DNA of 64,000 nt. It comes from Isoetes taiwanensis (taxonomy: Eukaryota > Streptophyta > Lycopodiopsida > Isoetales > Isoetaceae). Shown here in pieces: positions 1,032 through 56,400 of this stretch. The notes below the pieces were generated by a model, which saw only the letters and a program-made list of their open reading frames with translations, was not told where the DNA came from and searched no databases. Location: contig JAJEKV010000058.1 in the NCBI GenBank assembly GCA_021234155.1, forward strand, positions 5,464,600 through 5,528,599, read 5' to 3'. A program made the position numbers and the translations under genes. Every line of letters starts with the position of its first letter. The stretch's first letter is position 1.

Positions 1032-2641
1032 TGTGGCGTTCCAAGGAAATATATGCCATAAATACGTATATTTCCAGGTCCGTCACTATACAAGTCTACC
1101 TTCATAGCCTTGTATACCCTTGTATACCTTAGATTAGTGGCATAAGGTGCATGACTAAGTTATTCATATAACTTAGCCAACCTTAAGTTAAGACTATTTT
1201 CCACATGGCCTTAACCTATTGGGCACCTGCCACATGGGACTACCCTATTGGAAGCCACGTGGCATAACATGTGAACCCTAACCTATAAAGGCCTAAACCC
1301 TAACCCTAGACCTCTTTCCTGGCTCCAACAATCTGTGAACCTTCTTCGCACTCGAAACTCTGTTCCGAGAACCATTTGCTGTGGCACAATCTAGCACAGC
1401 ATCCCCCAGAACGTGTGCATGTCCTTGGAGTGAGAGCTACTTCGACCACCTCGAAGACCATGGAGACGCCGGGAATAGGAGGGAATTCCTCAGGAGCAGG
1501 TATTTGGATTAGAGTTCTTTGTAGATCATCTGGAAGTTAGAATTCCAGATGAGTTAGCATTTCCTGTCTCTAGTAGAGCCTTTCTAGACACCTCAGTGTA
1601 GATCTTAAACCTTAATCAATGAACCCTAACTGTAAGTTAGATGTAAATGATTAGGTTTAGATGTCCTTCTTATTATGATCATGTTATGGATATGTGATAA
1701 TCATGTTTTCTCCTCTTGTATTGGGAAGGGGGGTAGAGACCTAGTAGCCATTACTTAGTAATGCTCCTAGTTTAGACCCTTTAGTTCCTATTAGTATGCG
1801 GCCTGTGCATTGGAACACACCGGGCTCTGGGAGCTATGATATGACTCAGCACTACATAACGGGGCTAGAGGCGAGTCGGAGGGAGGGTCCCTGCTAAGCG
1901 TGGCTATTGGGGACCCCATAGCGGGCTAGGCTTATGGCCGGCCACTTCGGGTGGGCCGGGCATGGGTCCGACACCTCCTGGAGCAATGGTGTCGCCCTGC
2001 CTCTCAAGAGCTGCAGGTGACGGCCTAGCTCTTGTTTTGGGGGGTTAAGTTGGGGAAGAATCGTGTGTCACCACGATTCTCTAGCCGCCCGTGGAACCTC
2101 TAGACCCCGGGAAGGGGAGATAGAACCCTTCCTGCCTCGACGGACCGGGGAGATGCAACCCAGAGCAGTCTCGATGGGTGATACCGTGAGATTGCGTATC
2201 CGGAAGGCTAGAGTCATATCAGAGCCCGATCTAGCCCATCTGCCTAGCCATTGTCTCGAGCCAGCCCCGCCATTGTTATGACTCAGTCTGCTCTATCTTG
2301 AGGCCTAGCCGTCAGCCTACCTCCCCATGAGTCTAAGCCTTAAGTAGGAGCTCTCATGTTTTACGGCACGTATTTGTATCTATTGTATCTATGGATGTAT
2401 GGATGTGCTACCCTTCGAGGTAGTCCGATGTATTGTTATTGCTAGTTCTGACGATGTTTATGCTTCCGCTATTATAGGAACCCATAGGGGATGGGCGTGC
2501 AAGACACCTTCGTGTCCCCTTCCCACACTAGGGATACCCTGGAGCAGGATAGATGGAGGGCCCGTGCGGTTGAAGGACCGGATGGGGGATTTCCTACGGA
2601 GTGTATGGCCGGGCGCCGTATATTTTGTAGGGCGCATCACA
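1032..2641 (+). repeat. LTR of the outer Ty3/gypsy-type element
   Basis: The 1610-bp LTR begins TGTGGCG and ends GCATCACA (TG...CA). It is bordered on the left by a polypurine tract and on the right by a tRNA primer site. A TATA box (cctataaagg, about 1282-1291) is followed by a telobox-like stretch (aaaccctaaccctag), a promoter context common in plants and probably the start of R. The short ORFs inside at 2063-2706 look like chance reading frames. No second copy of this LTR is present in the window, so the boundaries rest on the PPT, PBS and TG/CA signals. Confidence 0.7.
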
Positions 2642-2642
2642 A

Positions 2643-2660
2643 TGGTATCAGAGCCAGGTT
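2643..2660 (+). promoter_or_regulatory. Primer binding site, initiator tRNA-Met type
   Basis: The sequence tggtatcagagccaggtt starts one base after the LTR. TGGTATCAGAGCC is the standard plant LTR-retrotransposon primer site complementary to the 3' end of tRNA-iMet. It differs from the full complement by a missing T after position 14. This fixes the sense of the element as plus strand. Confidence 0.85.
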
Positions 2661-3213
2661 CTTAATTGACCAAGAACTAGCACTGACCATATCCCTAGCT
2701 AAGTAGTCTAACCGGCCTAATAGGGTGTGGGATGAAAATTCCACCGTTGAACCTCGAAAATAGGGGGAATGTTTTTTTTCTCCTAGGTAGTGGGGTCGTA
2801 AAGTTAGAGCAAGTTGTTAGATGCAAGAAAAAGAATGAGTCAAATTAACATTCTAGTAAAATTGTAGTGAAAATGATAAAGGAGCATCAAATTCCACCCA
2901 AAATGGGTCGAAGAATCATCCCAATCCGAGATCCGGGTGAAAGATGGTGCAAATCCATAATTGACACATCAACCCATTAGGAAAATTCGAATTTTAAAGT
3001 ATAATACAGTGTTAGCCATACATTAATAAGTATGTATATTGGGGTAATTAATAAGGAGAGGCTAATTAATAAGGCTATTAATAGCAACATAATATTCCTT
3101 AAAGCATCTTTCCTTTTTAAATACCATTTTACCACCCATTTCTCCTTATCTTTCCCTAAACCTCTCCTTCTTGATCTTCAACTTAACTTAATCCATTTTC
3201 TTAACCGTAAAAC

Positions 3214-4196
3214 ATGGCATGCACCAAATGCACAGCAAGGAAGTATAGCCCCAGGTTCACCCCTTCCATGGCGGCAGCAGCAGGAGGCACCGGAAAGAAG
3301 ATCCCAGCCCGGGAGGGAGGAGGAGTCATCTAGCTCAACAGACGACACCTTCCACGCCTCCCAGGAGCGGGAACAGAGCAGCTCCTCGGGGGAGACACAA
3401 AGGACGGATGAAACCGTCAACCTGAGCTGGCCATAGGAGGAAGAGCAGCAGTAGGGCAGCGACCAGGAGCAGCAGGAACAGGAGCAGTAGCAGCTGGTCC
3501 AAGAGGGACCAGGACCAGCCAAGGGGCACCGTGCATATTGAAGAACCTCGTCGAGAGTCTACCGACGAGGAGGAGAGTGAAGAAGCCGGGCAGAACGAGG
3601 AAGAGCCTGAGCAGGACGCTAGGGAATCATCTAACCCCGACGCTCGCCCACCTTACTCTAAGTGGCCCAAGCCGCCTAAGGTAATCAAGAAGCAGAAGTA
3701 GGGTGAACGGGAATTCATGCTCAAGCAGGATCGTGAATTCCAGCGGCGTAAGAAGGCATACCAGGAGTACCTCCATAGATGGAAGAGGTACAACGAATGG
3801 TACTGCAACCAGAATGTACAAAAGTACGTTAAAGGTGAGAGGCCCAAGAATCGGCCAAAGTTGCCGCCGCCATGGCCGGAGCCACCCAAGAAAGTCCACC
3901 ACGGGCCAAACTCAAAACACGCCCTTGTGTTCAGGGAGATTAGGCACTTTCAACAGTGTACTAATCTCCTCATCCGGAAGGCGCCATTCTAACGGCTCCT
4001 CTGAGAAATAATGCAAAAGTTTCGGACCAACTACAGGGTCACAACCCTAACGATCTGATCTCTGCAAGAGGCAGCAGAGGCGAAGCTTGTCCAACTCTTC
4101 GAGGAGGGCAACCTATGTGCAATCCATGCGAAGAGGGTGACGGTGATGCCTAAGGACCTCCACCTGGCGAGGAGGATCCGCAAGGAGAAGCCCTAA
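3214..4196 (+). pseudogene. Histone H3/CENH3-like gene with long acidic tail, inside an LTR retrotransposon
   Basis: The ATG at 3214 starts MACTKCTARKYSPRF, close to the invariant H3 tail ARTKQTARKS. A frameshift near 3325 leads into a Ser/Glu-rich stretch. A second frameshift near 3520 leads to a Glu-rich then Lys/Arg/Pro-rich linker (3543-3929). The histone fold follows at 3930-4193: FREIRHFQQCTNLLIRKAPF (alpha-N and alpha-1), then [16 protein letters not shown], then [20 protein letters not shown] and a final [20 protein letters not shown] resembles plant CENH3 more than canonical H3. The loop-1 spacing is that of H3, two residues shorter than in Arabidopsis CENH3. The tail is about 240 residues, far longer than in H3. 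Stops at 3990, 4002 and 4056 and the frameshifts make this copy non-functional. It could be cargo of the retroelement or a nested retrocopy. Confidence 0.85.
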
Positions 4197-6894: not shown

Positions 6895-8840
6895 TTTTTT
6901 TTTTTGAAGAACGACAATTTATTATCAAGGAAAATCAAGATACATACAAGAGACCTGTGACATGGGACTCAAAACCTAGAGGATGAAATAGTCCACTAAG
7001 CAAAACCACCCATACACAGAGTATAATCATAATCCTTGTGCCACCTTGAGGCGTTTAATGGCCTCATCACAGTCATCATGTTCTACCTCATCGAGATGAT
7101 CATCAATAGATATCAAATTCTCATGCCATTGAATAGTGCGAGGCAGGATAGCCTCATGAGATGGTATCACAGACTTCTTCCTCGATGCCTTCTTCCAATT
7201 GACCTGTTGCCATGACTCTTTCGCGCACTGAAGATTAGGACCATCAGCCATAACAACCTCAGAAGCATGAGAGGCAGAAGCAGCAACGTGGAGAGTAGTA
7301 GGAACTATAGCTGCAGCTGATGGTGCTAAGGATGACACCACCGGAACTGTATCTAGAGCATCTTCCATAGCCGAGGAATGCAAAACATCCGGCAAAGGTT
7401 GATCATGTATAGATGAAGAAATAATAATGGGAGCTTGAACTTGGGAAGAATGTTGAACAGATGCCTGAGACGCACAAGTATCTCGACGAAAGCTAACAAA
7501 AGCCTCTTTATCAGGAAACAAACGGACTAATTCTAGACCATTCAGAAGCTTAAGATCCAGCTTTTTATATCAAGCCCCGCTCTTCACAACTATACAATCT
7601 GGTAAAGGCGAGTCCACTGGCATAGAAACACAAATTCTTGGACCATTCATGATGGAGTGTGAGATATGAACCCCAAGTCCCGTTGCAATTGCAACTAGAA
7701 ATTCATGAGCCATTAGATCAGGAGGAAGATTAGGTATCGAGAACCATCAAGGCATCTTTAATGCAGGAACCATATCTGGTGTGAAGCCAGGAGAATAATA
7801 CTGGTACATCATATATTCTCCACCAAGTGGATCAATCCCTCTTGATACCAAAGAGTCCACTGCATCACTGCTTTCAAACATAATAAGAACAAAGTTTTTT
7901 GCCAACAACTTGATGGACTGAAAAGGGGGAAGTTGAAGGCGTCTCAAAAGCCGAGATAACCAAACACGAAATCGAGAAAAATCTAAATAACCACCAGTAA
8001 AATACCCAAGAACTGCACAGGAAGATAAGTTCTCAGCACACTTAATATGAGCTTGATGGTCCACTTCAACCACAGGAATACCAGAAGCTTGAACCACACT
8101 CTGACAATCAGACTGGTAAAATATATCATCTGGAGGCAACTGCTATTGAAGCTGAAACTGTCGGGCTTTCAATGTGTCCAAGATTGCCGACAACTCCTCC
8201 TTACTCCTTTCAGACAATACCTGTAATGCCGCTGCTACCCTTGCCTTTCTAGATGCATTAAATATATCCTTACAAAGCCAATCACTAAATCTTTGATATG
8301 AAACTTTTGTAACAGAATCAGATGACTTCCAGGCACTATCATTTGTCCGAGGCTGAGAATCTACATTAGGACTTGAATCTGTATCTGTTTGATGCAAATT
8401 CCCAATAACTTCCGCTCCCTTATTCGCTGCGCCTTGCAAGGGAGGAAAATCCTTTTCTTCAAGAACCACTGGAGTAGCGACCACCGAAGGCAAAGAGCTT
8501 CCAACTGAATTATTTACCTCTTTTTGCGCAGCAACTGGGGAATCACGTATCACCAAACTGGTGGTAGACTCACGCCGTTTTGCTGCCGCCTTGGATGCTG
8601 GAGCAATATCTGTCTTCCCCATCCCTATTATTCTTGGCCGAAATGGAACAGACCCAAATCCGGCCCCTAACCTGACAGCAAACTATAACAAAATTGATTT
8701 TGACGGAGAGCTCTCGGGACAAGCTTTCCAACGAACCAAAGATTATCAAAAAGGAGTCCAGATGCTCAAGTTACAAGGAAAACCGCCGGTAGCCCTAAGC
8801 GCCATCGTCACGAGCGACCATCCTCATCCCTTCTTCTTTC
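6895..8840 (-). mobile_element. LINE retrocopy (ORF1 only) with poly(A) tail, fused to U6
   Basis: Read on the minus strand, the unit runs from U6 (8930-8841) through LINE 5' sequence and ORF1 to a poly(A) tail, visible as 11 T at 6895-6905. ORF2 is absent, so the copy is internally deleted or derives from a non-autonomous form. The 3' end just before the tail reads ataaattgtcgttcttc on the minus strand. I found no convincing target duplication around 6894 and 8931. Confidence 0.7.
7027..8622 (-). pseudogene. Plant L1-type LINE ORF1 (DUF4283-like RNA-binding protein)
   Basis: From the ATG at 8622 the first segment (8622-8143) is MGKTDIAPASKAAAKRRE and a Ser-rich linker with EEKDFPPLQG, a motif common before the DUF4283 domain. 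After a stop at about 8140 the second segment (8139-7747) gives CAVLGYFTGGYLDFSRFRVW, FVLIMFESSDAVDSLVSRG and YYSPGFTPDM. This is the DUF4283 pattern of plant L1 ORF1 proteins, which bind the element RNA. The third part continues to 7027 with frame changes near 7740 and 7560 and a Ser/Ala-rich C-terminal region. No CCHC zinc knuckle is seen. The copy is not functional. Confidence 0.65.
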
Positions 8841-16350: not shown

Positions 16351-17305
16351 GCCAGGAACACCGACTCAGGGTCTCAAGGCCAGGGTCAGCAACACCAGTG
16401 GCAGCCCAGGAACTTGTTCAGCCGGGAGCACGATGACGAATAAGAAATGACAGTTGAAGCAGTCAACACAAGATTAACACAGATGAGAAATCAAATGCAG
16501 CAATTACTACAGTGGGCAACACTGCTAATGCACGCACAAGAATATGAGCCAGCACCACCTCCACCACCGAGAGGTCTTGATGAAGCTCCTCAACTGTTGA
16601 GAGAAGAAGCCCAGGCTACCGAGAAGAACAGGAAGAGGAAAAGAAGAAGCAGGAGGAACCCATCTCCTTCCAGCTCTAGCAGATCAGAGATCTCATACAG
16701 TAGATCTCGAAGTAGCTCGGAGAGTGAGTCAGACACTTCCTAGGGCAGAGATAGGAACAGAAGAACAGACGACTATCAAAAGAAGGTAGACAGCGCGATG
16801 AGCAATGTGTGGAAGACAAGAAAATTGGGTCAGTTCTCGGGCAAGGATAGGTCAGGGATGGAGACAGAGGCGTGGCTAGATGAAATGGAAGAATTTGGAA
16901 ATCCCTATGGGCTGAAGGACAAAGACATAGGCAAGGTAGCAACAGCGAACCTAATTGGGCCAGCCAGAATTCCAATAAGTTGAGGAGAAATAATTGCAGG
17001 TTCAGAACCTTAGCAAGGCATTCCGTAAGCATTATGTCCCGAGATTTCACACAAGTAAACAAATACAGCAGTTCTATAGGTTGGATCATGGCAACTTATC
17101 CGTGGCCAAGTACATTGAAGAGTTCATGAGGCTGAGATTCAATGTTCCAAGGATCACGGAAAGACAAGCGGTGGATGGTTACATCGAAGGGCTGAATAGC
17201 AACATTAAGAGGTTGGTTCGAGCAATTAACCCAAAGATAGCCGGGGAGGTTGAGGATAAGGCTTTGAGCTTGGAGGAAGTGCCAGTAACTCCAGGGCAGA
17301 AATAA
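16351..17305 (+). pseudogene. Gag of the outer Ty3/gypsy element
   Basis: A Gln-rich lead-in and MTVEAVNTRLTQMRNQMQQL (from 16447) are followed by a proline run and an Arg/Ser-rich segment. After a TAG at 16741 comes FSGKDRSGMETEAWLDEMEE, then in a second frame SKAFRKHYVPRFHTSKQIQQ, then LDHGNLSVAKYIEEFMRLRF and ITERQAVDGYIEGLNSNIKR. This is the retrotransposon gag core (capsid) pattern, in which the F..HY.P....K...F..L.....SV..Y...F..L motif is typical. Frameshift near 16983 and stop at 17303. The gag packages the element RNA in cytoplasmic particles. This copy is dead. Confidence 0.75.
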
Positions 17306-17429
17306 CTACCATACAAAGGGAAGGCAGCGGGACAGTATCAACCCAGGCAAGCACCCTCCACTCCAGCAGGGAATCAATACCAAGGGAAATCAGATAGGAA
17401 AGGATCTTATGGGGAGCGCAAACAACATG

Positions 17430-18060
17430 AAGCCTCAGGGGGCAAGTTAGTAAAATTCTTCTTAGACAACATACCCAAAGAGAAAAGACAGAAGTTGTGC
17501 TTCGGGTGCTTCCAGCCAGGGCACCGCACGTACAACCGCCCCTTCGTTATGCAAGCGGCACTAGCAGAGCTGACCGACTGGGAGTCGCCAATCGAAGGGG
17601 ATGGCGAGGAAGGCGACCAACAGGAACCACAGGACTACATAGAAGGTGAGTGTAAAATTTGCGCTGCCATTGAGTCAGGGAAGGTTAAGAATCAGTCTAC
17701 AGTCATCTCGGCAGAGGGAACCATAGATAGCAAGCCATATGTAGTCTTGATAGACACTGCCTCTCCAAGCCTAGGCCAGTCAGGATGGCAAGGGCGCGAT
17801 CCGCCACACTAAGGAGAGGAGAATTAGTTTTGAAATAGACCTTAGTGGAAGCAAATGGCCTATGGGTGCAGAAGTCATGGATATTGGGAAGTACGACTTG
17901 ATAGTAGGAATGGAGTTCCTGAGGCCAACGAAAGCTATAATTGACTGTGACAGGAGTGAGATCGTTATGACGGTGCCAGGCGGGACTCGATACATAGTCA
18001 AAGGTAAGAAGGTAACTTCAACTATGCAGTGTATCTCCATGAAGAAGCTGCAGAATACAA
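17430..18060 (+). pseudogene. Zinc knuckle and protease start of the outer Ty3/gypsy element
   Basis: The knuckle CFGCFQPGHRTYNRPF has the CX2CX4H spacing but lacks the last Cys. An acidic linker leads to YVVLIDTASPS, the aspartic protease active-site strand (D-T-A instead of D-T/S-G). After a frame change near 17810 the protease continues DIGKYDLIVGMEFLRPTKAI and IDCDRSEIVMTVPG. Coding similarity fades at about 18060, before the insertion of the next element at 18124. No RT of this element is found after 29050, so the 3' part is deleted or lies elsewhere. Confidence 0.7.
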
Positions 18061-18118
18061 GTTCTGAAATTACTAAAATTCCCCTCAAACGAATGGCATT
18101 TGGCTATTGCTTAATATA

Positions 18119-18123: not shown

Positions 18124-20551
18124 TGTTGCCTGGCTATAGCAGGCAACATGTACAAGGCTCCTGAGCAATATCACAGGCAAACAACTTGAAGACCAAGAAT
18201 ACTGAGACCAGAAGACTTGAAGACAAAGATGCTGATGAAGAACCCAAAGGATGACTTTAAGTCAAGACACAAGTTCACAACTCAAGCTCCAAGGATTGAA
18301 TGCATTTTCTAGCTCTGAAGGCACTTATGAGGTTTGGAAGACCCCTGTGAAGATGGCAAGCTATGATATGGTACTTATCCTTCTCATATTCTAAAGATTC
18401 TCTATTTGCTTTTTGTGCCATCACACCATCATCCTTATCCTATTTTTTCACCCTCATTGCCTTTTCACATCCTATACCATCATGTATTTCATGTATAACC
18501 ATTTGTTTCATAGTTGACCTACCATGACCTAGGGCACATTTCCCAAGGAGGTTGTCAAATCTAAAAGTTGCCTAGCATCGAACTCTATACCACCATTCTC
18601 ATCTCATGCCTTGCCATTCCATTGTCACACACTCCATGCCAAGTAGCTAAAGCAAAACATATGTGCTAAGCACAAAAAATACAAAAAACACAAGGATGCC
18701 TAGTCACATCTCCAAGTGACATGGCGTGATGACTAGATGTACATGTCATCACCTCTAAAGCTACTTTGGTCCACTCATCATTTGCTACCTTCATGTCTCA
18801 TTCATCATGTTGCCACCTAAGCACCAAATTTCCACATCATCACACCACTCCACATCATCAAATGATGACTAGGCGAGTTTTAACCAAACTCAAAAATTGG
18901 TCAACCAAATGATCAAACTACCTTGGGAAGTGAACCTACTAGCCTTGTTTACCCTAGTTGACCTATTTTCTATCCTTCCACTACATTTTCACCTATTGTC
19001 ACATCATCATCCATTAGGGCAAAAGACCTTGTTTGACCAACACATATCACATTGACCTTGCCCAGTCATTCATCTTTTTAACAAAAAAATCAAAATATTA
19101 TTTTCCAAAATTTGGCCTTGCCATTTTGAAGCTCCCTTGAAAGTATGCCACCTGGCACAAAAAATCTCAAAAAAAGACCCTATATAGACCTTCAAATTTC
19201 ATTTCTTGGGAACCGTGCCCATGCCAAAAAATGCAAAAATTGTCCTATTCTACCCCCCATCTATCTACCCTCTTATCCTCTGCCAAGTGGCGTCCCCCCT
19301 GGCATGCCAAGTCGAAACACGAGCCGAGCTTGGCGTGGGAGGAGACCACGCAATCAAGAGAAAGGAAAATAGCTCCCTATTTATACCTTGTCCCACTTTT
19401 TGATCTGTGCCTGTGGGATATATCATGCCGAACCCTAAAATTTGAATTTTCCAAGAAACCACCTTTCTGTTGAGCCTAACGGGGTGATCATGGCATCTGT
19501 TGGCCGGTTTTATCCTACTCCACTGAAAGAACAACCCAATTAAACCAAAACCGTGGCATTGATTACGAATTTGCCAAGAACTGACCGTAGACAGGGGACT
19601 TTAAAAAAGGGGTTTGTTCGACTGAATTTTTTCGAGGGCGAGAAGCGGATTTGAAGACCAGGAACGTGGAGTCGTGACGTCTACAGAGCTTGCATAAAAT
19701 CCTCCTGCTTCGGAAATCAAAATCTGAGGCAATTGTGATGAAATATCCTTGAAATTCTTGAAACTTGAAATTTATTTTGTGATTGAGTTATTCTCGGGTG
19801 ATCCAGTCGGGCATTCTTGAATACCTCGTGTTGTGAATTTACTGTTTTGACTTAATGAAAATCGGAATTTGGGAAAAGATTGTGTGAGATTGTGATTAAA
19901 CTCATTTTACTTTGCATTGTTATTAAGCACAAAAGAAATTAGCAAAATACTAGTGGTGTTTGAGCAATTAGGAGCATCAGTAGTGAGTGTTCAGAGTAGA
20001 AAAAACGTGAAAAAATATTAATGACAATCAGAGTGCAAAAACTGTTACAGACATTGTCATTGTAACTCTGACAGCATATGTTACAGCAAGAATCTAAGCT
20101 CTGTTTGGATTAAATGAGCATATGCACGTGACCTACAGGAGCATACCTAGGTGAGAGAATTGGTTTCTGCCACAAAAGATCATTGTCTGGCATTTGGCAG
20201 AATCGAGCTCACTGTTCAGGCCATTGACCAAAAATTGACCCAGTCAGGAATTTGATTTGTGAGAAATTTGTGAGCATTTATACTGTAGACCTTTCACGAC
20301 AGTTTTCTAGAGTTGGCTAGCACACTCTGGTAAAGATTTTAAGTGCTTTTGAAGTAAATGCATGGTGTGGTGAATGTCTGAGTGCTGCTAATTTATTTTG
20401 CTTTAGGGACTCTAGCTGATTTGAGATTTCCTTGCAAATTCAGAGTTTCTTTTGCAGTGCAGATTGATCACCTCAAGTGATCTGGAGGTCCTGACCATCA
20501 AAACACACTTGTAAGGCCCCAGTTGGATATCACCCAGGATAATCTCCAACA
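18124..20551 (+). repeat. 5' LTR
   Basis: Starts TGTTGCC and ends CCAACA, 2428 bp. The first 25 bases can fold as a hairpin (TGTTGCC pairs with GGCAACA around tggctatagca). It aligns end to end with 26616-29044. A TATA-like tatttatacc lies at about 19379. The small ORFs at 19145-19534 look non-coding. Confidence 0.95.
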
Positions 20552-20554
20552 TTT

Positions 20555-20572
20555 TGGAGGTCCTACCGAGAT
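20555..20572 (+). promoter_or_regulatory. Primer binding site, tRNA-Gln type
   Basis: The sequence tggaggtcctaccgagat lies three bases after the LTR. It matches the complement of the 3' end of plant tRNA-Gln (TGGAGGTCCTACCGGGA) with one mismatch. Confidence 0.8.
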
Positions 20573-20615
20573 ATCCCTCCTGGAAATCAAGAACTCACCT
20601 GGAAGTAGAAAAAAC

Positions 20616-21662
20616 ATGCCTCCAAGTAGGAGAAGTGAGCAGACTGAAGCTCCAGAACCTACTGATCCCATTGGAATGCCCAGTTCAAGCAATGTACCTC
20701 CTAATTTGACTCTGCCTCCTATTTTTGAACTGAACCTACCAATTACTCCTCCTATTTTTGAGCCCAGCATGAATGCCAATCAATTCTTGAAGACGAAGAC
20801 TACTACAAAGATTATGGTAATAAAAAAGGTTGTAAGTTCTCTGAATTTGTGAAGTGTATGAAATCTAGTGAACCTGAAGCGTGGTGTGAACATGTTACTA
20901 CTGTTATGGGTACTAATACTTATGAGAGTCTTGTAGAACAGTTCTTGAGCAGGTTTGGAAAGCTGTCAGCACCACAAGAGCTGGCCAATGAGCTTCAAAC
21001 TTTCTGCATTCGAAGTGGAGAGAGCATCAACCAATATGTTGAAAGATTCAGTGCCTACCTTAGAAAATGCCAAAAGAGTCATATCCCCACTCCATCCCTC
21101 TTCTTTGTAGCTGCTTTTATCAAAGGTCTAGCTCCTAGGCCAAGAATTCACAAGAAAATGCTTAGGATCCAAAACCAAGAAGGTTTTGATTCCATACATA
21201 AAGCCTTTGCCAAAGCTACCTCTATATCTGCAGAATTATCTTTCCTACCTGACACTTGCCATCCACATGTTTCAGATCCTTTCTATCCTGATTATGAACA
21301 AGAGCCTGTGTATGTTGTGAAGGAAAAGAGGAAAGCCAAGGTTGAGGAAGAAGCTCAATCCAATGAATCAAAAGCTGAGATGGCCAAGATGACTGAAACT
21401 ATAGCAGAGTTGACTAAGCAACTCATGGAGATGAAAAATAACATAAAAACTTATCCACCATGCATTCATTGCACCAAGAATACTCACCCTAGTGACATTT
21501 GTTATTACAGGGCTTGCTTGAAGTGTGGGAAAAAAGGTCATTATGGAAAAGTTTGCCCAGTGTGCAAGTTTTCGCAAGGAGATTGGCCATTATGAGGATA
21601 GGTGCTTGGTGAAGGAGTATTTGGAGAAACAAGAACAAGGCAAAAGGAAGAGACTAGTGCAT
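20616..21662 (+). CDS. Gag polyprotein (frameshifted)
   Basis: It starts MPPSRRSEQTEAPEPTDPIG at 20616. A one-base shift near 20795 moves into DYYKDYGNKKGCKFSEFVKC. The capsid core follows: YESLVEQFLSRFGKLSAPQE, RSGESINQYVERFSAYLRKC, FVAAFIKGLAPRPRIHKKML. A coiled-coil-like stretch (EMAKMTETIAELTKQLMEMK) precedes a CCHC zinc knuckle, CLKCGKKGHYGKVC. A second knuckle-like motif, ...IGHYEDRC, is reached only after another frame change near 21575. The frame ends KRKRLVHL with TGA at about 21667. Because pol is intact, the two shifts may be recent decay or base-calling errors. Confidence 0.8.
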
Positions 21663-21725
21663 CTGTGAGATTCTTGGAAGAAGAAGCATTCCAGGAAGCG
21701 ATCATGGCAAGTACAAACTAGAGCT

Positions 21726-24700
21726 ATGGTGAGAACAAGAAGGATGCAAACTCAGGTCAATTACCAAGAGAAGGAAATTCAAAAAGAAGATCAAGCTTAT
21801 CAGGTAATAGCTCCTGCTCCTGCTGAAAGATTTCAGAGAAAAGATAAGGATTTGGATGACTTTGAACATATTCTTAAGAATTCTAAGGTAACTTTGGATT
21901 TATTGACTCTGCTGAGGATTGCTCCTAGCTATAGGCAGAAAGTGATCAACTCTAGCAATGTAGAAACAGTGTCTTTTGCTTCTGAAATTGTGCTGACTCA
22001 GGAAGAGGAAGACCCTGGTGCCTTTACATGTTCAGCAAAAATTGGTACTCATCAACTTCCTAGAGTTTTGTTAGATGGTGGTTCTTCTTTGAATGTGATG
22101 CCTCAGCATATAATGCAAAAATGTGGATTGAAGATCACAAAACCTTCACCAATGGTGTTGAGATCATTTTCTAATGCTAAAATCATGCCTTTAGGTGTTG
22201 TTACAGGTGTACTAGTGGAAACTGAAGGGATTGTGGTTCAAGCTAGTTTTTTTGTAGTTGCTTTCGAGTTTGGCAACAACACTACTGACATCTATGACTT
22301 GTTACTTGGCAGGAGATGGATGTCTACAGTTGATGCCAGACCTGTATGGTCAAAAGGAGAGTGTACCATATCTGATGGAGTTAAAAGGACAACTCTCTAC
22401 AACAAGTCAGGGAGTACCAATATCTGTAGTTTTTTGGAAGAAGAAATGCTTGAACAAAGCACCATGGGGTTCTACAAACTACCTCTAGCCCTAGATCTCC
22501 TGGATGAATTGGTACCCTCTTACTCTTCTAACTCAGTAGATCACAAGAATTTGGGTGTCATCTGGTTTGATGGTGGAATATCTGTTAAGCTAGGGGTGGC
22601 ATCTTCTTCTGCTATAATCAAAGATTGTGCTAACAGATTGCTTTCAAAGGTTGGCAGGATACATGTTGGCATAACCTCCAACATGGCTGAGTACAGAGCC
22701 CTTTTGGCTGGCTTGCAGGAAGCTATTTCATTAGGACTGACTGAAGTAACCATTTATGGTGACTCTCAACTAATATGCAGGCAGGTCAATGGTGAGTATC
22801 AAGCCAAGAACCAAGAAATGCTATTGCTGAAAGAGGAAGCCTTGAGCTGGTTGAGCAAATTTAACAAATGGAGTTTGAATTACATACCAAGGGATGAAAA
22901 TTGTGAAGCAGATGCCCTATGCAGAAGTGTGCTGCTAGATTACCTTGCTGAAGGAGCTATCAAGGAAGAAGAGTTGGAACATGAAGAGATTGCACAACTG
23001 CATCCCATTCTGGTAATAGATGCTCAGCAAGAAAAAGAGGTAAAAGAACTGACTATTACCAAGAATGATGAGATTAGAACTCTGTTTCTAGGAGATATGT
23101 TTAAAACTCAGAAAGAAGCATCATTACAAGAATTCTTTGAAGAATGGAAAGATGTATTTGCATGGGATTACACAGAGTTGGTAGGTGTAAAAACTGAGAT
23201 ATGTGAATTTGAAATAAAGATGAAAGAGGGAACCAAACCTGTCATGCAAAAACTGAGAAGGATAAATAGATCCTTGCTAACTTTGATCAGAGAAGAATTA
23301 TTAAAGATGAAAGAAGCTAAAGTTATCACTGAGATAACCAACCCTGAATGGCTGTCATGCATAGTACCTGTTGAAAAAAAGAACAAAACTATACGCATAT
23401 GCATAGATTATAGAGACCTTAATAAGGCTACTATAAAAGACTGTTATCCACTTCCCTTTCTAGAAGAGGTGCTTCATGCAACTGCTGGTAAAGAGATTTA
23501 TTCATTTCTAGATGGATTTTCAGGTTTTAATCAGATTAAAATCAAGGAAGCAGACCAAGCTAAAACCTCCTTCATAACCCCTTGGGGAACCTTTGCCATG
23601 CAAAAAATGCCCTTTGGATTGATGAATGCATCTGCTACATTCCAGAGGGCTATGGATAAAATCTTTCAAAGGATGCCTCTTGATAAATTTAGGGTGTTTC
23701 TTGATGACCTTTGCCTGGGAACACTGATAGAGCAACACATGAAACTTCTGACTATGATTATGAGTCTGTGCAGGGAAAGTGGTGTATGCTTAAACCCAAA
23801 GAAGTGTATCTTTCTATGTTCAAAAGGTGAACTGTTAGGACATGAAGTATCTGCTCAAGGAATCAAAGTCTCAGAGGGTAAGATGGAAGCACTCAAGAAA
23901 GTAGTGCCACCTAAAACTCTGAGGCAAGTAAAGAGCTTTATGGGACTTACTAGTTTTTTAAGAATCTATGTACCTAATTTCTCACATATTATGGGTCCTA
24001 TAGCAAATCTGACAAGAGTAGGCAAGTACAGCAAACATGAGAGCAAACATATGGAAGTAAATTGGACACCAGAGTGCCAGGCTGCTTTTGAGTTACTCAT
24101 CACTCGAATTTCTCAATCAGAAGCTTTAAAACCACCTGATCATAGTCTTCCTTTTAAAGCTTATATAAGTATCACTAACAAAGCTGTTGGCATTTCTCTA
24201 CTACAGGATCATGGCATAATAGCCTTTACAAGCAAGATATGGTCAGACACAGAAATGAGATATGCTAGATTGGAAAAAAGTGCTGCAGGAATAATGTGGT
24301 TCCTACAAAGACTTGGACATATTGTCCAACACAATGAGGTAAAGGTGCTCATGCACCAAAATCCCCTTCCATTATTATTTCAGAAAAGTCAAAGCAAAGC
24401 CAAATTATGCAGGTGGGCCTGCAAAATTCAAGATTATAATCTTAGTGTCAAAACAGTCAAAACCATTAAGAGCCCTAGTGATTATCTTACAGAGAGAGCT
24501 TTTGAATTTGAGGATTTTGAAGGATTGCAGGACATGGAAACACCTCAGGAGACTGGAGATTCTACCAACCTTGTTTTGTCTAGCAAGATGAATGAGGATT
24601 GGCAGTTTGACCTTATTGAATTTCTGCAGAATGGAGAGCTGCCTAAAAACATGGATACTAAGCAAACCAGAAGATTTAGAGCTAAAGCTAAAACATTCAA

Positions 24701-25808
24701 GATGGTAGGAGATGTGTTGTGCAAGATTGATTATAATGGAGTGCTGTTGAGATGTGTCAACAGATCTGAAGCTGAGCTGATTGTGGAAGCATGTCATGAA
24801 GGCATTTGTGGTGGGCATTTTGCAGCTGAAACCACTGCAAAGAAGATCATCAGGTCAGGCTACTTCTGGCCAAGTTTGTTCAAAGATTGTTATGAGACAA
24901 TCAAAAGATGCCATAAGTGTCAAATTCATGGTAGGAGAATCCTTCAACCTGCTGCTCTTACTGGTATTGTATCTCCTGGTCCTTTTCAAATTTGGGGATT
25001 GGATTTTATAGGGCCTATATTTCCTGAATCTCAAGGTAGGCATGAATACATCCTAGTTGCTACAGATTATTTTACTAAATGGGTGGAAGCAACCCCACTT
25101 AGACAGGCAAATGCTCTGACAACTGCAAGATTTTTACATGAGCACATATGCACCAGGTTTGGCATTCCTTTCAAAATTGTATCTGATAGGGGAACACAGT
25201 TCATAAATGATGTCATTAGTAATCTACTCAAAGCATTAAAGGTCAAACATGTGAAAAGCTCTGCCTATTATCCTCAAGGCAATGGGCAAGCTGAATCAAC
25301 AAACAAAGTGTTGAAGAGCATCCTAAAAAAAACAGTTGAAGTTCATAAAAAAGATTGGCATATTAAACTGCATGATGCATTGTGGGCATATAGGACCACT
25401 GTAAAAAATGCTACTAACCATACACCTTTTAGCCTTGTCTATGGTGTTGAAGCTGTGGTCCCAGTTGAACTAGAATTGCCATCACTCAGGTTGGCAATGA
25501 AGATCCAGATGCAGCTAGAGGATGCTTACAAAGACAGGTATGAGAAGTTGCTGATGCTTGAAGAAGAGAGGCTGGAAGCTGAGAATGTCAACCTGAGGAA
25601 AAAAGCTAAGGATATAGCAGCTTTCAAAGCTGCACACAAGTTACAAGGAAGTTTCAAAGTAAATGAATTGGTGCTCAAGTGGAATAAAGCAAAGGAAGAT
25701 TCAGCAGGTAAATTTGATGGCCTATGGGAAGGCCCTTTCAAGATCCATGCAATTGTCACGAAGTTCTTATCTTTTGCAAGAAATTGGTATGGGGAGATTG
25801 CTAGCTAA
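21726..25808 (+). CDS. Pol polyprotein: PR - extra RNase H - RT - decayed RNase H - INT
   Basis: 1360 aa. Protease about residues 105-200 with LLDGGSSLNVM (D-G-G at 117-119). An archaeal/plant-type RNase H at about 277-398 keeps all four acidic residues: D282 (WFDGG), E322 (NMAEYRAL), D346 (YGDSQL), D396 (CEADAL). Reverse transcriptase about 500-760: ICIDYRDLNKATIKDCYPLP, PFGLMNASATFQRAM and catalytic FLDD at 658-661. The ordinary gypsy RNase H (about 808-925) keeps the Glu (RLEKSAAG, E850) but has YISITN and LMHQNPL where Asp is expected. Integrase: zinc H1024, H1031, C1062, C1065; catalytic D1093, D1154, E1190. The natural C-terminus (NPINTLHLKRYWEQ) is reached after a shift near 25755. Tat elements as I know them have the extra RNase H after the RT part, so the upstream placement is odd. 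Confidence 0.92.
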   Translation: MVRTRRMQTQVNYQEKEIQKEDQAYQVIAPAPAERFQRKDKDLDDFEHILKNSKVTLDLLTLLRIAPSYRQKVINSSNVETVSFASEIVLTQEEEDPGAFTCSAKIGTHQLPRVLLDGGSSLNVMPQHIMQKCGLKITKPSPMVLRSFSNAKIMPLGVVTGVLVETEGIVVQASFFVVAFEFGNNTTDIYDLLLGRRWMSTVDARPVWSKGECTISDGVKRTTLYNKSGSTNICSFLEEEMLEQSTMGFYKLPLALDLLDELVPSYSSNSVDHKNLGVIWFDGGISVKLGVASSSAIIKDCANRLLSKVGRIHVGITSNMAEYRALLAGLQEAISLGLTEVTIYGDSQLICRQVNGEYQAKNQEMLLLKEEALSWLSKFNKWSLNYIPRDENCEADALCRSVLLDYLAEGAIKEEELEHEEIAQLHPILVIDAQQEKEVKELTITKNDEIRTLFLGDMFKTQKEASLQEFFEEWKDVFAWDYTELVGVKTEICEFEIKMKEGTKPVMQKLRRINRSLLTLIREELLKMKEAKVITEITNPEWLSCIVPVEKKNKTIRICIDYRDLNKATIKDCYPLPFLEEVLHATAGKEIYSFLDGFSGFNQIKIKEADQAKTSFITPWGTFAMQKMPFGLMNASATFQRAMDKIFQRMPLDKFRVFLDDLCLGTLIEQHMKLLTMIMSLCRESGVCLNPKKCIFLCSKGELLGHEVSAQGIKVSEGKMEALKKVVPPKTLRQVKSFMGLTSFLRIYVPNFSHIMGPIANLTRVGKYSKHESKHMEVNWTPECQAAFELLITRISQSEALKPPDHSLPFKAYISITNKAVGISLLQDHGIIAFTSKIWSDTEMRYARLEKSAAGIMWFLQRLGHIVQHNEVKVLMHQNPLPLLFQKSQSKAKLCRWACKIQDYNLSVKTVKTIKSPSDYLTERAFEFEDFEGLQDMETPQETGDSTNLVLSSKMNEDWQFDLIEFLQNGELPKNMDTKQTRRFRAKAKTFKMVGDVLCKIDYNGVLLRCVNRSEAELIVEACHEGICGGHFAAETTAKKIIRSGYFWPSLFKDCYETIKRCHKCQIHGRRILQPAALTGIVSPGPFQIWGLDFIGPIFPESQGRHEYILVATDYFTKWVEATPLRQANALTTARFLHEHICTRFGIPFKIVSDRGTQFINDVISNLLKALKVKHVKSSAYYPQGNGQAESTNKVLKSILKKTVEVHKKDWHIKLHDALWAYRTTVKNATNHTPFSLVYGVEAVVPVELELPSLRLAMKIQMQLEDAYKDRYEKLLMLEEERLEAENVNLRKKAKDIAAFKAAHKLQGSFKVNELVLKWNKAKEDSAGKFDGLWEGPFKIHAIVTKFLSFARNWYGEIAS

Positions 25809-25875
25809 TCCTATAAACACATTGCACTTGAAAAGGTATTGGGAGCAGCATGTCTGCCTGATCTTATTTGAGTAA

Positions 25876-26615
25876 ACATGTTGTAATGCTTTTAGTTAGG
25901 AACTATGTGATAATTCTCAGAAATAGTTGTCAGAGTCTTTGTTAGTATTTCAAGTTTAAAATGATAAAAGACATAAAAAGGAGAAAAGAAAAAAAAAAAT
26001 CAAACAAAACATAGAGTTCTAAGTAAAGTAGGTTTTGTTATTTAACAGTTTGCACTTTCAGAGAGAAGATGGTTGCTGACTGAAGGCCAGATTTCAAACA
26101 AGTCTTTGCTCAGCCGAGCAAGAATTCATCTTGTTGATGCTAACATTTTGCACCACTTGCCAGATCCATCAGACTGATCAAACTCATCAGGATGTAACTT
26201 AGCCTGCATATACATGAGACTTGTATTCTTTTCAAATGCAGATTCCTATCAAGCAGCTATGCATCCATGGAGAAAAAGTCATTGCGTAAGATACTAACGG
26301 TTTTTTAAGTGTCATTCCAGGCTCATTTGTTTTCCTTCCATGTCCATCTGATCACTATAGCCTGGAACATATGACCATTGCTTCCAAATCTTCTCAAGCT
26401 GCTACCAAAAGTTGCCTCCCATAGTCACTCACCTAAAGGCAACTCAGAGAGACAAGTTCAAACAAAACAAGAAGAACACTGCTGCTGATCATGCCAATCA
26501 TTCCAACAGTTTAGAAGACCACTGTCGATCAGATATTCATATCCATAGTCAAATTTTCTAACCCGAATGTCACAGTCGAGGGGACCAGCCACATCCTCTC
26601 CTTTGTTTAGCATCA
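25876..26615 (+). other. 3' untranslated internal region of the gypsy element
   Basis: No ORF of note. The sequence is A-rich near 25960-26000 and otherwise has no clear structure. I do not see a convincing polypurine tract directly before the 3' LTR; gaggggacc at 26578-26586 is the nearest candidate. Confidence 0.6.
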
Positions 26616-29044
26616 TGTTTGCGGCTATAGCAGCAGCAACATGTACAAAACTCTGAAAGCAATATCACAGGGCAAACAACTTGAAGACCAAGAATCACGA
26701 GACCAGAAGACTTGAAGACAAAGATGTTGATGAAGAACCCAAAGGATGACTTTAAGTCAAGACACAAGTTCACAACTCAAGCTCCAAGGATTGAATGCAT
26801 TTTCTAGCTCTGAAGGCACTTATGAGGTTTGGAAGACCCCTGTGAAGATGGCAAGCTATGATATGGTACTTATCCTTCTCATATTCTAAAGATTCTCTAT
26901 TTGCTTTTTTGTGCCATCACACCATCATCCTTATCCTATTTTTTCACCCTCATTGCCTTTTCACATCCTATACCATCATGTATTTCATGTATAACCATTT
27001 GTTTCATAGTTGACCTACCATGACCTAGGGCACATTTCCCAAGGAGGTTGTCAAATCTAAAAGTTGCCTAGCATCGAACTCTATACCACCATTCTCATCT
27101 CATGCCTTGCCATTCCATTGTCACACACTCCATGCCAAGTAGCTAAAGCAAAACATATGTGCTAAGCACAAAAAATACAAAAACACAAGGATGCCTAGTC
27201 ACATCTCCAAGTGACATGGCGTGATGACTAGATGTACATGTCATCACCTCTAAAGCTACTTTGGTCCACTCATCATTTGCTACCTTCATGTCTCATTCAT
27301 CATGTTGCCACCTAAGCACCAAATTTCCACATCATCACACCACTCCACATCATCAAATGATGACTAGGCGAGTTTTAACCAAACTCAAAAATTGGTCAAC
27401 CAAATGATCAAACTACCTTGGGAAGTGAACCTACTAGCCTTGTTTACCCTAGTTGACCTATTTTCTATCCTTCCACTACATTTTCACCTATTGTCACATC
27501 ATCATCCATTAGGGCAAAAGACCTTGTTTGACCAACACATATCACATTGACCTTGCCCAGTCATTCATCTTTTTAACAAAAAAATCAAAATATTATTTTC
27601 CAAAATTTGGCCTTGCCATTTTGAAGCTCCCTTGAAAGTATGCCACCTGGCACAAAAAATCTCAAAAAAAGACCCTATATAGACCTTCAAATTTCATTTC
27701 TTGGGAACCGTGCCCATGCCAAAAAATGCAAAAATTGTCCTATTCTACCCCCCCATCTATCTACCCTCTTATCCTCGCCAAGTGGCGTCCCCCGGCATGC
27801 CAAGTCGAAACACGAAGCGAAGCTTGGCGTGGAGGAGACCATTTAATCAAGAGAAAGGAAAATAGCTCCCTATTTATACCTTGTCCCACTTTTTGATCTC
27901 GTCTGTGTGGGATATATCATGCGAACCCTAAAATTTGAATTTTCCAAGAAACCACCTTTTCGTTGAGCCTAGCGGGGTGATCATGGCATCTGTTGGCCGG
28001 TTTTATCCTACTCCACTGAAAGAACAACCCAATTAAACCAAAACCGTGGCATTGATTACGAATTTGCCAAGAACTGACCGTAGACAGGGGACTTTAAAAA
28101 AGGGGTTTGTTCGACTGAATTTTTTCGAGGGCGAGAAGCGGATTTGAAGACCAGGAACGTGGAGTCGTGACGTCTACAGAGCTTGCATAAAATCCTCCTG
28201 CTTCGGAAATCAAAATCTGAGGCAATTGTGATGAAATATCCTTGAAATTCTTGAAACTTGAAATTTATTTTGTGATTGAGTTATTCTCGGGTGATCCAGT
28301 CGGGCATTCTTGAATACCTCGTGTTGTGAATTTACTGTTTTGACTTAATGAAAATCGGAATTTGGGAAAAGATTGTGTGAGATTGTGATTAAACTCATTT
28401 TACTTTGCATTGTTATTAAGCACAAAAGAAATTAGCAAAATACTAGTGGTGTTTGAGCAATTAGGAGCATCAGATAGTGAGTGTTTGAGTAGAAAAAAAA
28501 CGTGAAAAATATTAATGACAATCGAGTGCAAAAGCATTCTGGACATTGTCATTGTAACTCGGCGACATACATATTCTGAAGAATCTAAGCTCTGTTTGGA
28601 TTAAATGAGCATATGCACGTGACCCTCTGAGGAGCATACCTAGGTGAGAGAATTGGTTTCTGCCACAAAAGATCATTGTCTGGCATTTGGCAGAATCGAG
28701 CTCACTGTTCAGGCCATTGACCAAAAATTGACCCAGTCAGGAATTTGATTTGTGAGAAATTTGTGAGCATTTATACTGTAGACCTTTCACGACAGTTTTC
28801 TAGAGTTGGCTAGCACACTCTGGTAAAGATTTTAAGTGCTTTTGAAGTAAATGCATGGTGTGGTGAATGTCTGAGTGCTGCTAATTTATTTTGCTTTAGG
28901 GACTCTAGCTGATTTGAGATTTCCTTGCAAATTCAGAGTTTCTTTTGCAGTGCAGATTGATCACCTCAAGTGATCTGGAGGTCCTGACCATCAAAACACA
29001 CTTGTAAGGCCCCAGTTGGAGATCACCCAGGATAATCTCCAACA
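26616..29044 (+). repeat. 3' LTR
   Basis: 2429 bp, starts TGTTTGCGG and ends CCAACA, followed by the AGTAT duplication. It matches the 5' LTR along its whole length. Differences are concentrated in a few short patches, mostly at CTG/CAG words, rather than spread evenly. Confidence 0.95.
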
Positions 29045-38330: not shown

Positions 38331-39697
<1,367 letters not shown>

Positions 39698-39748
39698 GAA
39701 ATGAAATGAAATGAAATATATAGATAATACGTCTGCAGACCACCAGGT

Positions 39749-40437
39749 CTATGAGACGTTCAAAACCGTACATTCAACATTATAAAAAATATCCTCTAAT
39801 GCATCTTCAGAAAGAAACGCATCAGAGCTCTCCCCCTCATCTCCCCCATTTCCATCTCCATCAATAACCTTTAGCACATTATTCCTGTGTTCCATCAATT
39901 CAATTATAAAATGACCTATGATGCTTCCCGAGAGACTAAAAAATGCAACCAAATCATTACAATTAATTTGGTATCTATGACGAAGATCTGCATACTGTGG
40001 GTAGCGCAAGAGAACATGCGCTTCATCTTCAACTTCTCCCATAACACACAGCCTACATATCCTAAGCTCATGAGGTGTGTTGCTCCATCTGCCCACTTCT
40101 ACTCCCAGTCTGTGTGAGCTGAGCCTTAGTCTACTAATTGCATGCCTACACTTCACTGATACCCCTTCACTTAAATATCCTGGATGTTGAAGAGAAGGAT
40201 TAATGAACTGTTTATAATATGTTTTCTTCACTTCTGGGACACACCACGATCTCATAATCACATGCTCCTGTACCCAAGCCCTAATATCACCACACTGGTT
40301 ATGTAAATCATTACATTCCAATCCCCATTTTTTCATCCAAACCTGAACACCCAAGTACCATCCTTTGAACCTCGTTGCATCCATGGCAATTCTAGGCAAG
40401 CTTTCTTCGTGCATATCCATTTGCACTTTGCAAACAT
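39749..40437 (-). pseudogene. LINE ORF2 C-terminal region with Cys/His motif
   Basis: Starts MQMDMHEESLPRIAMDATRF and contains RHAISRLRLSSHRLGVEVGR, then ELRICRLCVMGEVEDEAHVL with the CX2C...H arrangement usual at the end of many LINE ORF2 proteins. It ends VLNVS at 39749. It is separated from the RT part by a stop at about 40440 only, so it is the same protein broken once. Confidence 0.8.
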
Positions 40438-40439
40438 AT

Positions 40440-41598
40440 TCAAGTGTTCTGCATCATACCACATTCTACTAGCATCATATCATAAGGAGTTTGTGCCTTA
40501 ACCCCTAACTCTGTTCTAAAAAATTTCTTCTGAACCTTTTCAACTTTTTTCCAGGTGTCCTCTGCTAACCCAGGTGCCCACATCTCACAACCATAAAGTA
40601 AAACAGTTTGAACAAGCACTTTATATAGCATTTTCTTTAACTCAAAATTCCAAATATCAGCGTTTGCACTTCTGCGTTGCATACTGTATAAAGCCTTCAG
40701 CCCACCACTTACCCTTTGGTCTACAGCCTGATTCCAACTTGGAGTTTTATCCACTTGAATCCCCAAATATTTATATGAATCCACAATATCCACCTGTTCT
40801 CCTTTGTATAAAAATTTAAGATGCCCAACCTTAAGTGCCCCAAAGACAATCAATTTAGTTTTAGTCAAATTCACCTTCATGCCCTTATTGTCACAAAAAA
40901 AAGACAAGGCATCTAAATGCTTCTGCATGCCTGCCACCGACCTGGATAGAATAACTATATCATCTGCATACAACAACATGCGCAACGTATAACATCCCAT
41001 GACCATACCGTCTCCTCCAAACTGTTCCACCCAATCTTCAAGCTGGTCTATAAATAGTCCAAACAAAGTAGGGGACATAGGGCAGCCCTGTTTAACCCCC
41101 ATATTACTGCTTACCTCATCTGAACCTACACCACAAAAAGGAAATGAAAGATGTACCAATACCTTTTCATATAACATCTTGACAGCATTTCTCAGCTCTT
41201 CAGGTATCCCAAGCATCTCCATCCGCTCCCAAAGATTCCCCCTGTGTACAGTATCAAATGCTTTTGTAAAATCCACAAAAAGTGCATATAATGGTTTTCT
41301 AGTTCCTATGACTGAGTCTATCAAGGCACGCAAAGTGATTAAATGATCTGTCGTTGATCTTTTAGGCCTGAAACCTGCTTGCCCCATTGCTCTAACATTG
41401 TTCTCTTCAGCCCATCCACTAATCTTTCTATTTACCATGGTGGCATATAATTTGGCATATAGATTGCTAATCATTATCATTCTGTAATTGTTTGGATCTT
41501 TCTCATCCCCTAATTTATGCAAAGGAATAACTTTGTTCACTTGCCAACTGTGCGGAAAGCCCTCTCTCAAGACTGCATTCATTAATTTCCACATAATC
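40440..41598 (-). pseudogene. LINE reverse transcriptase (ORF2 fragment)
   Basis: The open frame of about 385 codons reads HEIMWKLMNAVLREGFPHSW, VIPLHKLGDEKDPNNYRMIM, GQAGFRPKRSTTDHLITLRA, LFVDFTKAFDTVHRGNLWER, MGVKQGCPMSPTLFGLFIDQ and catalytic LLYADDIVIL, then NLTKTKLIVFGALKV, YKYLGIQVDKTPSW and TVLLYGCEMWAPGL. All RT core motifs including the YADD box are intact. The N-terminal endonuclease is lost by 5' truncation. The reading frame happens to continue into the GA/GT repeat, which gives a false Ser-Leu repeat at the N-terminus. Confidence 0.9.
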
Positions 41599-41609
41599 TC
41601 ATGAGTTTT

Positions 41610-41769
<160 letters not shown>

Positions 41770-42030
41770 TTGGCATTTTGCCTCAAATCTACTTTTTGAG
41801 CATATGTACATGATCTAAGGTCCTATCTAGACATATAAGAGTTGAAACCGCATAAAAAAACTTTATAGAAATCAAGATATAAAGCATTGTTTGCTGGTTT
41901 TCTCTTACAGTTTGACAAAAAGATTTAAAAAGATTTATCTACTTTGAACACGTATTTCTCCATCGTCCAAGCCAAGTGTTGCTATTAATTTCTAGTTAGT
42001 CTCTTTTAGATGTTGCATAATCGGCCGTGT

Positions 42031-44428: not shown

Positions 44429-44616
44429 CCAGGGGACCAAGCCTTTCTGGACCCCCACTTCCAGAATGACGGATCACACACAGCAGCCAGGTCCAAGTAC
44501 CCAGGCACCACCCACAGCAGCAGAGCCGGACATGAGAGCCCCAGCACCTGCCAATGGCCCAACTCCTGCAGCCTCCATGGGGACTGGGACAGGGCAGTCA
44601 CCACAGACAGCATAGG

Positions 44617-55889: not shown

Positions 55890-56400
55890 AGGGGGTATTA
55901 GAGTCAGTTTTAGATTCAGACCTCAGTTATAAACTTAAAATGAAAAAAAATGAGAAAAACCTTTAAACTGACATTACGGCTGACGCTATAACCGACTCTA
56001 CGTTCTGTCGTTTAAACGTCAGAATTTAGCATCAAAATTATAGTCAAAGTTTGCGTCAAAATTAGAGTCAGAATGTGCGTCCAAATTAGAGTCATAATAT
56101 GCGTCAGAATTACACTTAGATTATAGTCAGAATGTGCGTCAAAATTAGAGTCAGAATGTGCGTCAGAATTAGAGTCAGAATGTGCGTCAGAATTAAAGTC
56201 AGAATTAGAGTCAGGATATGCGTCAGAATTAGAGTCAAAATATGCGTCGGAATTAGACATAGATTATAGTCAAAATATGCATCAGAATTAGAGTTAGAAT
56301 TAGAGTCAATTGTGTCAAAATTAGAGTCAGCTCTAGCACTAGAATTTAGCCATAAAGACAGTGCTAACGTCAAAATTAGAGTCAACCCTAACGTCATGTA
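55890..56400. repeat. Left subterminal repeat array of the CACTA element
   Basis: Imperfect repeats of agagtcagaattagagtcag with variants gtcagaatgtgcgtc, spaced 10-24 bp. Such arrays near CACTA ends are where the element's TnpA-type protein binds in known family members. ORFs called across the array (Asp/Ser repeats) are artefacts. Confidence 0.8.

Follow-up and report, generated by a model that had tools for sequence, protein, structure and literature searches.

How did a block resembling histone H3 come to lie shortly after the primer-binding site of an LTR retrotransposon, and what could it do there? The question is raised by a stretch of 64,000 nt from Isoetes taiwanensis (assembly GCA_021234155.1, contig JAJEKV010000058.1, positions 5,464,600-5,528,599 of the forward strand), referred to below as the window. 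Silencing of retrotransposons acts partly via marks on histone H3. The following parts of the H3-carrying element were recognised in the window.

1032..2641, plus strand: 5' LTR of the H3-carrying element; the borders are those of an earlier sequence-only reading, of which the 3' one is consistent with the position of the primer site
2643..2654, plus strand: primer-binding site TGGTATCAGAGC, seen in the sequence; a similar pattern occurs in sister copies
2655..3213, plus strand: untranslated leader of 559 bp, between the primer site and the ATG
3214..3330, plus strand: H3-like N-terminal tail, beginning MACTKCTARKYSPR; ATG at 3214, the frame being closed (broken) by a stop at 3331
3334..3923, plus strand: acidic/basic linker, in a frame different from that of the tail; stop at 3699
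3924..4196, plus strand: histone H3 fold; coding part 3924-4193, own stop 4194-4196, in the frame of the linker and not of the tail
16744..18098, plus strand: degraded gag/protease remnant, 40-57% identical to the gag-pol of a sister copy

The tail start MACTKCTARK (window 3214) is identical to the H3 start MARTKQTARK in eight of ten positions. Among 8813 ATG-started stop-free 10-mers drawn from the window and from the fetched loci other than those of host H3, it is the only one to reach this identity, which confirms the H3-like start proposed by the sequence-only reading. The fold at 3924-4193 is matched by sister ORFs in tblastn with E-values down to 2.6e-31. The same reading had joined tail, linker and a full H3 fold into one gene. 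All the parts are present, but not as one intact gene: the frame changes after the tail, stops stand at 3331 and 3699 and, in frame inside the fold, at 3993, 4005 and 4059, and a deletion near 3493 has cost the linker about 140 bp relative to three other copies. Thus the H3 block of the window is a dead copy; the block is real, yet the copy is broken.

The LTR end, the primer site at 2643-2654 and the shared orientation of the parts all hold. The primer site TGGTATCAGAGC is presumably of the initiator-Met tRNA type, and the LTR matches, piecewise and with 68-82% identity, the LTR region in 11 of 17 sister copies. The placement of the H3 block ahead of gag, also claimed from the sequence, stands in part. 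Gag-like sequence does lie downstream, but it is confined to 16744-18098, past other insertions, and this remnant is likely part of the same insertion as the H3 block. Neither a 3' LTR of the H3-carrying element nor the pol of the window's own copy was found within the 64-kb window.

Related copies were sought in the whole assembly (1,658,258,908 bases in 1110 contigs). With the Pfam histone model PF00125, a search of all six frames gave 8705 first-look candidates, of which 150 were scored, and all 150 passed the cut-off; copy numbers are lower bounds. For fifteen of the scored candidates the match begins at profile position 2; the eight that were read proved to be full-length host H3, and the other seven are assumed to be host H3 as well. 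The other 135 folds match from profile position 4 to 25, and 37 of them were read. Open frames of at least 400 aa occur in 36 of the 150 scored rows (hand count). The 37 sister folds comprise 17 in 10-kb stretches, 15 of which were chosen for their long frames (L027 and L028 were chosen otherwise), and 20 further copies in stretches of about 3.4 kb, taken by rank, though not every row was used.

In a second search, the leader-to-linker DNA of the window (3180-3935), which leaves the fold outside the query, gave 861 first-look candidates, of which 40, including the window, were scored. The linker part was matched at all 40 places (window included), and the tail start was also matched at 30 of the 39 other places, with 70-90% identity (hand count). 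In the three copies of the window's type that were read, the H3 fold follows the linker, the last 30-60 bp or so of the leader can be aligned, and the flanks are shared with the window copy. All four copies of this type that were read, including the window, are broken. As the flanks are common to these three copies, the H3 block of the window is not a lone retrocopy. The presence of the linker at every one of the 40 scored places, and the common flanks of the three copies, argue against the alternative left by the sequence-only reading, a processed H3 pseudogene that landed in the element in a single insertion.

By their folds, the 37 sister copies fall into type P (26 copies, starting with MPRFKLT or similar), type E (9 copies, starting with METVKQV or similar) and two others, one of which, L021, starts with MANTK. 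A tree of the N-terminal domains of 15 ORFs has the same P and E clades, with support of 99/97 or better. The type of the window, named A, has an H3-like tail at its start, an acidic/basic linker and a diverged fold, and the N-terminal domain is not recognisable in it. The MAxTKxTAR start occurs only in this type. When four sister starts are compared with MARTKQTARK, their scores are matched by 1.6-6% of background peptides, and the start of L012 scores lower; the comparison is suggestive, at most, of a derivation of the sister starts from that of H3.

The sister copies have the layout PBS - H3 ORF - ORF2 - ORF3 - gag-pol on one strand, and the order is constant wherever the parts are present. 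Among the 17 copies in 10-kb stretches, the H3 ORF is present in 17, ORF2 in 16, ORF3 in 14 and gag-pol in 16; the PBS pattern is seen in 10, about 600-760 bp upstream of the H3 ORF. In L028 the H3 ORF and ORF2 are separated by additional sequence. This supports the earlier idea of a gypsy family that carries H3 at a fixed position downstream of the primer site. The proposed check for an H3-like ORF in other copies likewise came out positively (the linker at 40 of 40 places, the ORF in 17 of 17 sister copies), with the reservation that the copies were recruited by H3 or linker sequence, so that copies lacking the ORF would be missed. The additional frames are located as follows.

L022 3983-5443, minus strand; L027 4474-5994, plus strand; and equivalents in other copies: ORF2 (open frames up to about 500 aa) and ORF3 (about 150 aa), lying downstream of the H3 ORF and upstream of gag

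No Pfam domains were observed in the ORF2 and ORF3 frames scanned, and no database relative of the L027 ORF2 was found at E 0.001. The gag-pol frames of L017, L010 and L024 contain the Ty3 capsid, aspartyl protease, reverse transcriptase (RT), RNase H and integrase domains in this order. In L024 the integrase core is followed by a chromodomain (PF00385, 32.9 bits against a cut-off of 25.1), and the chromodomain motif is present in all four stretches that extend that far. The better-kept sister types are Ty3/Gypsy chromoviruses. In the chromodomain at L024 7278-9416 (plus strand), compared by eye with HP1, the cage tryptophan is kept and the two HP1 tyrosines are seemingly absent; with two of the three cage aromatics missing, this chromodomain may read something other than H3K9me.

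From its N-terminus, the product of the H3 ORF has a domain of about 200 aa (the N-domain), then a linker that is Q/E-rich or coiled, a stretch of basic sequence and, last, the H3 fold. The ORF is open, with 411-464 aa, in 15 of the 17 copies, 15 having been chosen for long frames, and is broken in L027 and L028; L012 and L015 have an apparent local frame-shift within the N-domain. Among the 20 further copies, the whole ORF is open in L043 only. The LTR pairs of three sister copies diverge by 9.3, 10.4 and 6.3%, and thus these three insertions are not very young.

The test for purifying selection between copies that the sequence-only reading had called for gave a clear result in the sister types. 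Over the 105 pairs formed by the 15 open ORFs, of which 34-41 were usable per region, the median dN/dS is 0.033 for the fold, 0.118 for the N-domain, 0.131 for the tail-like stretch and 0.188 for the linker; the highest single-pair values are 0.16, 0.24, 0.54 and 1.65, respectively. In a set of 28 copy pairs (11 usable) in which both were compared, dN/dS is 0.016 for the fold versus 0.045 for the RT of the element. The H3 ORF is under purifying selection in the sister types and, more weakly, in the A type, where the four broken copies have dN/dS of 0.06-0.48 in the fold and 0.10-0.32 in the linker (3702-3923). The low values in the A type are as expected if selection acted on the gene before the copies died.

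The retrotransposon folds and eight host H3 loci are separated by dS of at least 3, mostly beyond the range of the formula, with a median dN of 0.10-0.12. As dS is saturated, the capture is likely old, and recent recapture from those eight loci is excluded. The host H3 loci differ among themselves by a median dS of 1.69, and only eight were compared; thus dS dates the capture loosely.

That the fold belongs to H3 is clear from the profile score of the L024 product (148 bits against a cut-off of 26.4) and from the match of the chimera to H3.3 in PDB (E 1.5e-51). In all 37 folds read, 57 of the 100 positions considered (H3 36-135) are identical to host H3. The invariant residues include C110, H113, R116, D123, L126, I130, R63, R69, R72, R83 and T118, which we take to act in the H3-H3 bundle, on the H4 face and in DNA contact. 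K56 and L90 are kept in 37 of 37 folds and K79 in 36; K36 is replaced by R in 34, and position 87 is F in 28 and H in 9. A canonical N-terminal tail with K4, K9 and K27 was not found, and the ARKS motif (K9/K27) is present in one of the 15 open ORFs (L021) and absent from 14. Loss of the markable lysines is not universal: besides L021 with its ARKS, the A type keeps K4 at its start, and ARK, with a K9-like residue, in three of four copies. The conservation pattern is that of a protein which would still need to be a core H3, without the standard tail on offer.

For the N-domain of the P type (residues 1-200), a database of 5.77 billion proteins gave no relative at E 0.001, and none was found in viral contigs. 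AlphaFold gives it a moderately confident fold (pLDDT 79, pTM 0.70), which has no match at E 0.001 in PDB or BFVD. The lack of relatives of the N-domain and ORF2 may be due to databases short of Isoetes-like plants. The AlphaFold model of the whole ORF is poor over the H3 fold, and thus the case for fitness in a nucleosome rests on sequence conservation.

These data are best accommodated, with a probability of roughly 0.45, by the following reading. The block in the window is a broken copy of an H3 chimera gene of a multi-copy LTR retrotransposon family, sited after the primer site, whose product is predicted to take the place of host H3 in nucleosomes and would likely shield element chromatin from silencing marks. 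The H3 reading frame would have been captured long ago together with its own start, as the A type still begins with MAxTKxTARx. Most of the tail would then have been swapped for an element-specific domain or linker, and the fold surfaces holding H4, the second H3 and DNA would have stayed fixed. Paired with host H4, the chimera would be placed at element loci or new insertions, where the ARKS motifs of K9 and K27, as well as K36, would no longer be offered to host methyltransferases. The N-domain would form the exposed part, and the gain would be element chromatin that the host cannot tag via H3. A broader version, which we consider possible and rather doubtful, is that the element lineage builds its own nucleosomes, in which the chimera replaces host H3 on element chromatin and carries a new tail domain instead of the modifiable tail; together with the integrase chromodomain it might constitute a chromatin code private to the element, by which the element protects and targets itself.

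The conservation would fit integration tethering equally well. Under this second-ranked explanation, which we think somewhat unlikely, the chimera deposited in chromatin would serve as a landing pad: the N-domain or the chimeric nucleosome would be recognised by the integrase or chromodomain of the element, directing new copies to chosen chromatin. The element does encode a chromodomain integrase, its N-domain is conserved, and its chromodomain, seemingly without two of the three HP1 cage aromatics (tryptophan kept; compared by eye), may need a partner other than H3K9me. A modelled contact between the CR motif of a wheat integrase and CENH3, and an association of Copia insertion with H2A.Z, are described in the available text of PMC12786077. 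However, both N-domain and fold could serve anti-silencing equally.

A chimera that builds no nucleosomes, and instead titrates H3-H4 chaperones or H4 or coats element DNA or RNA in particles, seems improbable. Such a role would agree with the position of the H3 ORF upstream of ORF2 and gag on the same strand and with the long Q/E-rich or basic linkers, but the residues of DNA contact and H3-H3 pairing are fixed alongside the H4 face, which is more than an H4 decoy needs.

It is far less probable still that the product is a CENH3-like protein drawing the element to centromeres. The CENH3-like signature pointed out by the sequence-only reading, REIRHFQ..TNLLI, is indeed present as a string in the A type (REIRHFQxxTNLLI, close to Arabidopsis CENH3), and the chimera and CENH3/CENP-A both have a long, divergent N-terminal part ahead of an H3 fold. 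However, the loop-1 insertion of CENH3 is absent from every retrotransposon row of the alignment, in which CENH3 is represented, as in the trees, by two sequences. To these two the sister folds are 54-69% identical, versus 83-89% to host H3, and the window fold 48-54%, versus 61%. In the trees, CENH3 is split from H3 and the sister types at 97/96 and 99/97. The sister folds are canonical H3 and not CENH3. The placement of the A type is less clear, as in the best tree its fold (L051) stands beside the two CENH3 rows with weak support (70/21) and long branches. A single capture of all types is neither demonstrated nor excluded (p-AU 0.41).

Finally, it can hardly be credited that the H3 is a functionless passenger, carried along since a retrocopy inserted into one element: capture of gene sequences by plant LTR elements is known (PMC7264820, available text) and many copies are broken, but the ORF is kept across types between which dS is saturated, fold dN/dS within types is 0.013-0.036, and in a neutral simulation none of 400 ORFs was stop-free at each level of at least 0.2 substitutions per site.

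The elements resemble Ty3/Gypsy chromoviruses in the LTRs, the PBS and the order gag - protease - RT - RNase H - integrase - chromodomain, and differ from them in that three ORFs, the H3 chimera and two others, lie between PBS and gag. No ORF of the H3-chimera kind was found for chromoviruses in the available text of the reviews PMC12786077, PMC9033089 and PMC7264820; the last of these deals with the additional ORFs of plant LTR elements, and "histone" is absent from its available text. An orchid Ty3/Gypsy lineage carries an AlkB RNA demethylase in additional ORFs (PMC12786077, available text). There, too, a host-type gene acting on epigenetic or epitranscriptomic control is kept in additional ORFs, but it is an RNA demethylase, whereas here it is a structural core histone.

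The bracovirus histone H4, CpBV-H4, is likewise a core histone with its gene in a parasitic element, and is reported to join host nucleosomes and to alter host expression via its N-terminal tail (PMC5423620; PMC9145170, in the text available). CpBV-H4 is an H4 of a polydnavirus, and the chimera a retrotransposon H3 with an added domain of about 200 aa. Histones of DNA viruses in general (PMC9145170, available text) share with the chimera their encoding outside ordinary cellular genes, and differ in the carrier, DNA viruses there and a retrotransposon here. The main text of that review, as available, contains no word starting with retrotranspos- or retrovir- and no "RNA virus". "Histone" is also absent from the available main text of the genome papers of I. 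taiwanensis (PMC8566536) and I. sinensis (PMC10541799). No published retroelement-encoded histone was found in titles and abstract starts of the open full-text literature, which leaves subscription journals and preprints mostly uncovered; within this searched open literature, histones of parasitic elements were found described only for DNA viruses.

If the shielding reading is true, the family would counter silencing directly in the nucleosome, by a self-encoded H3 whose fold is largely fixed by selection and whose marked tail has been exchanged, and it would be a natural experiment in what can replace an H3 tail. It also raises the question of whether an element can write its own chromatin address.

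The window contains several other repeats. An LTR element at 18176-28929 directly follows the degraded gag; its LTRs of about 2.26 kb are 98-100% identical in most matched blocks and 87% in one, and an open frame of 1379 aa at 21669-25805 within it is similar to pol. Minus-strand ORFs at 6896-8682, LINE-like by eye and ending near a poly(T) run at about 6896, form an apparent insertion downstream of the H3 block. Plus-strand ORFs similar to LINE endonuclease and RT, also assigned by eye, lie at 44616-46458. Short-period tandem repeats were observed at 39516-41784, 56013-56286 and 61297-61892 (arrays with 8-bp and 12-bp periods).
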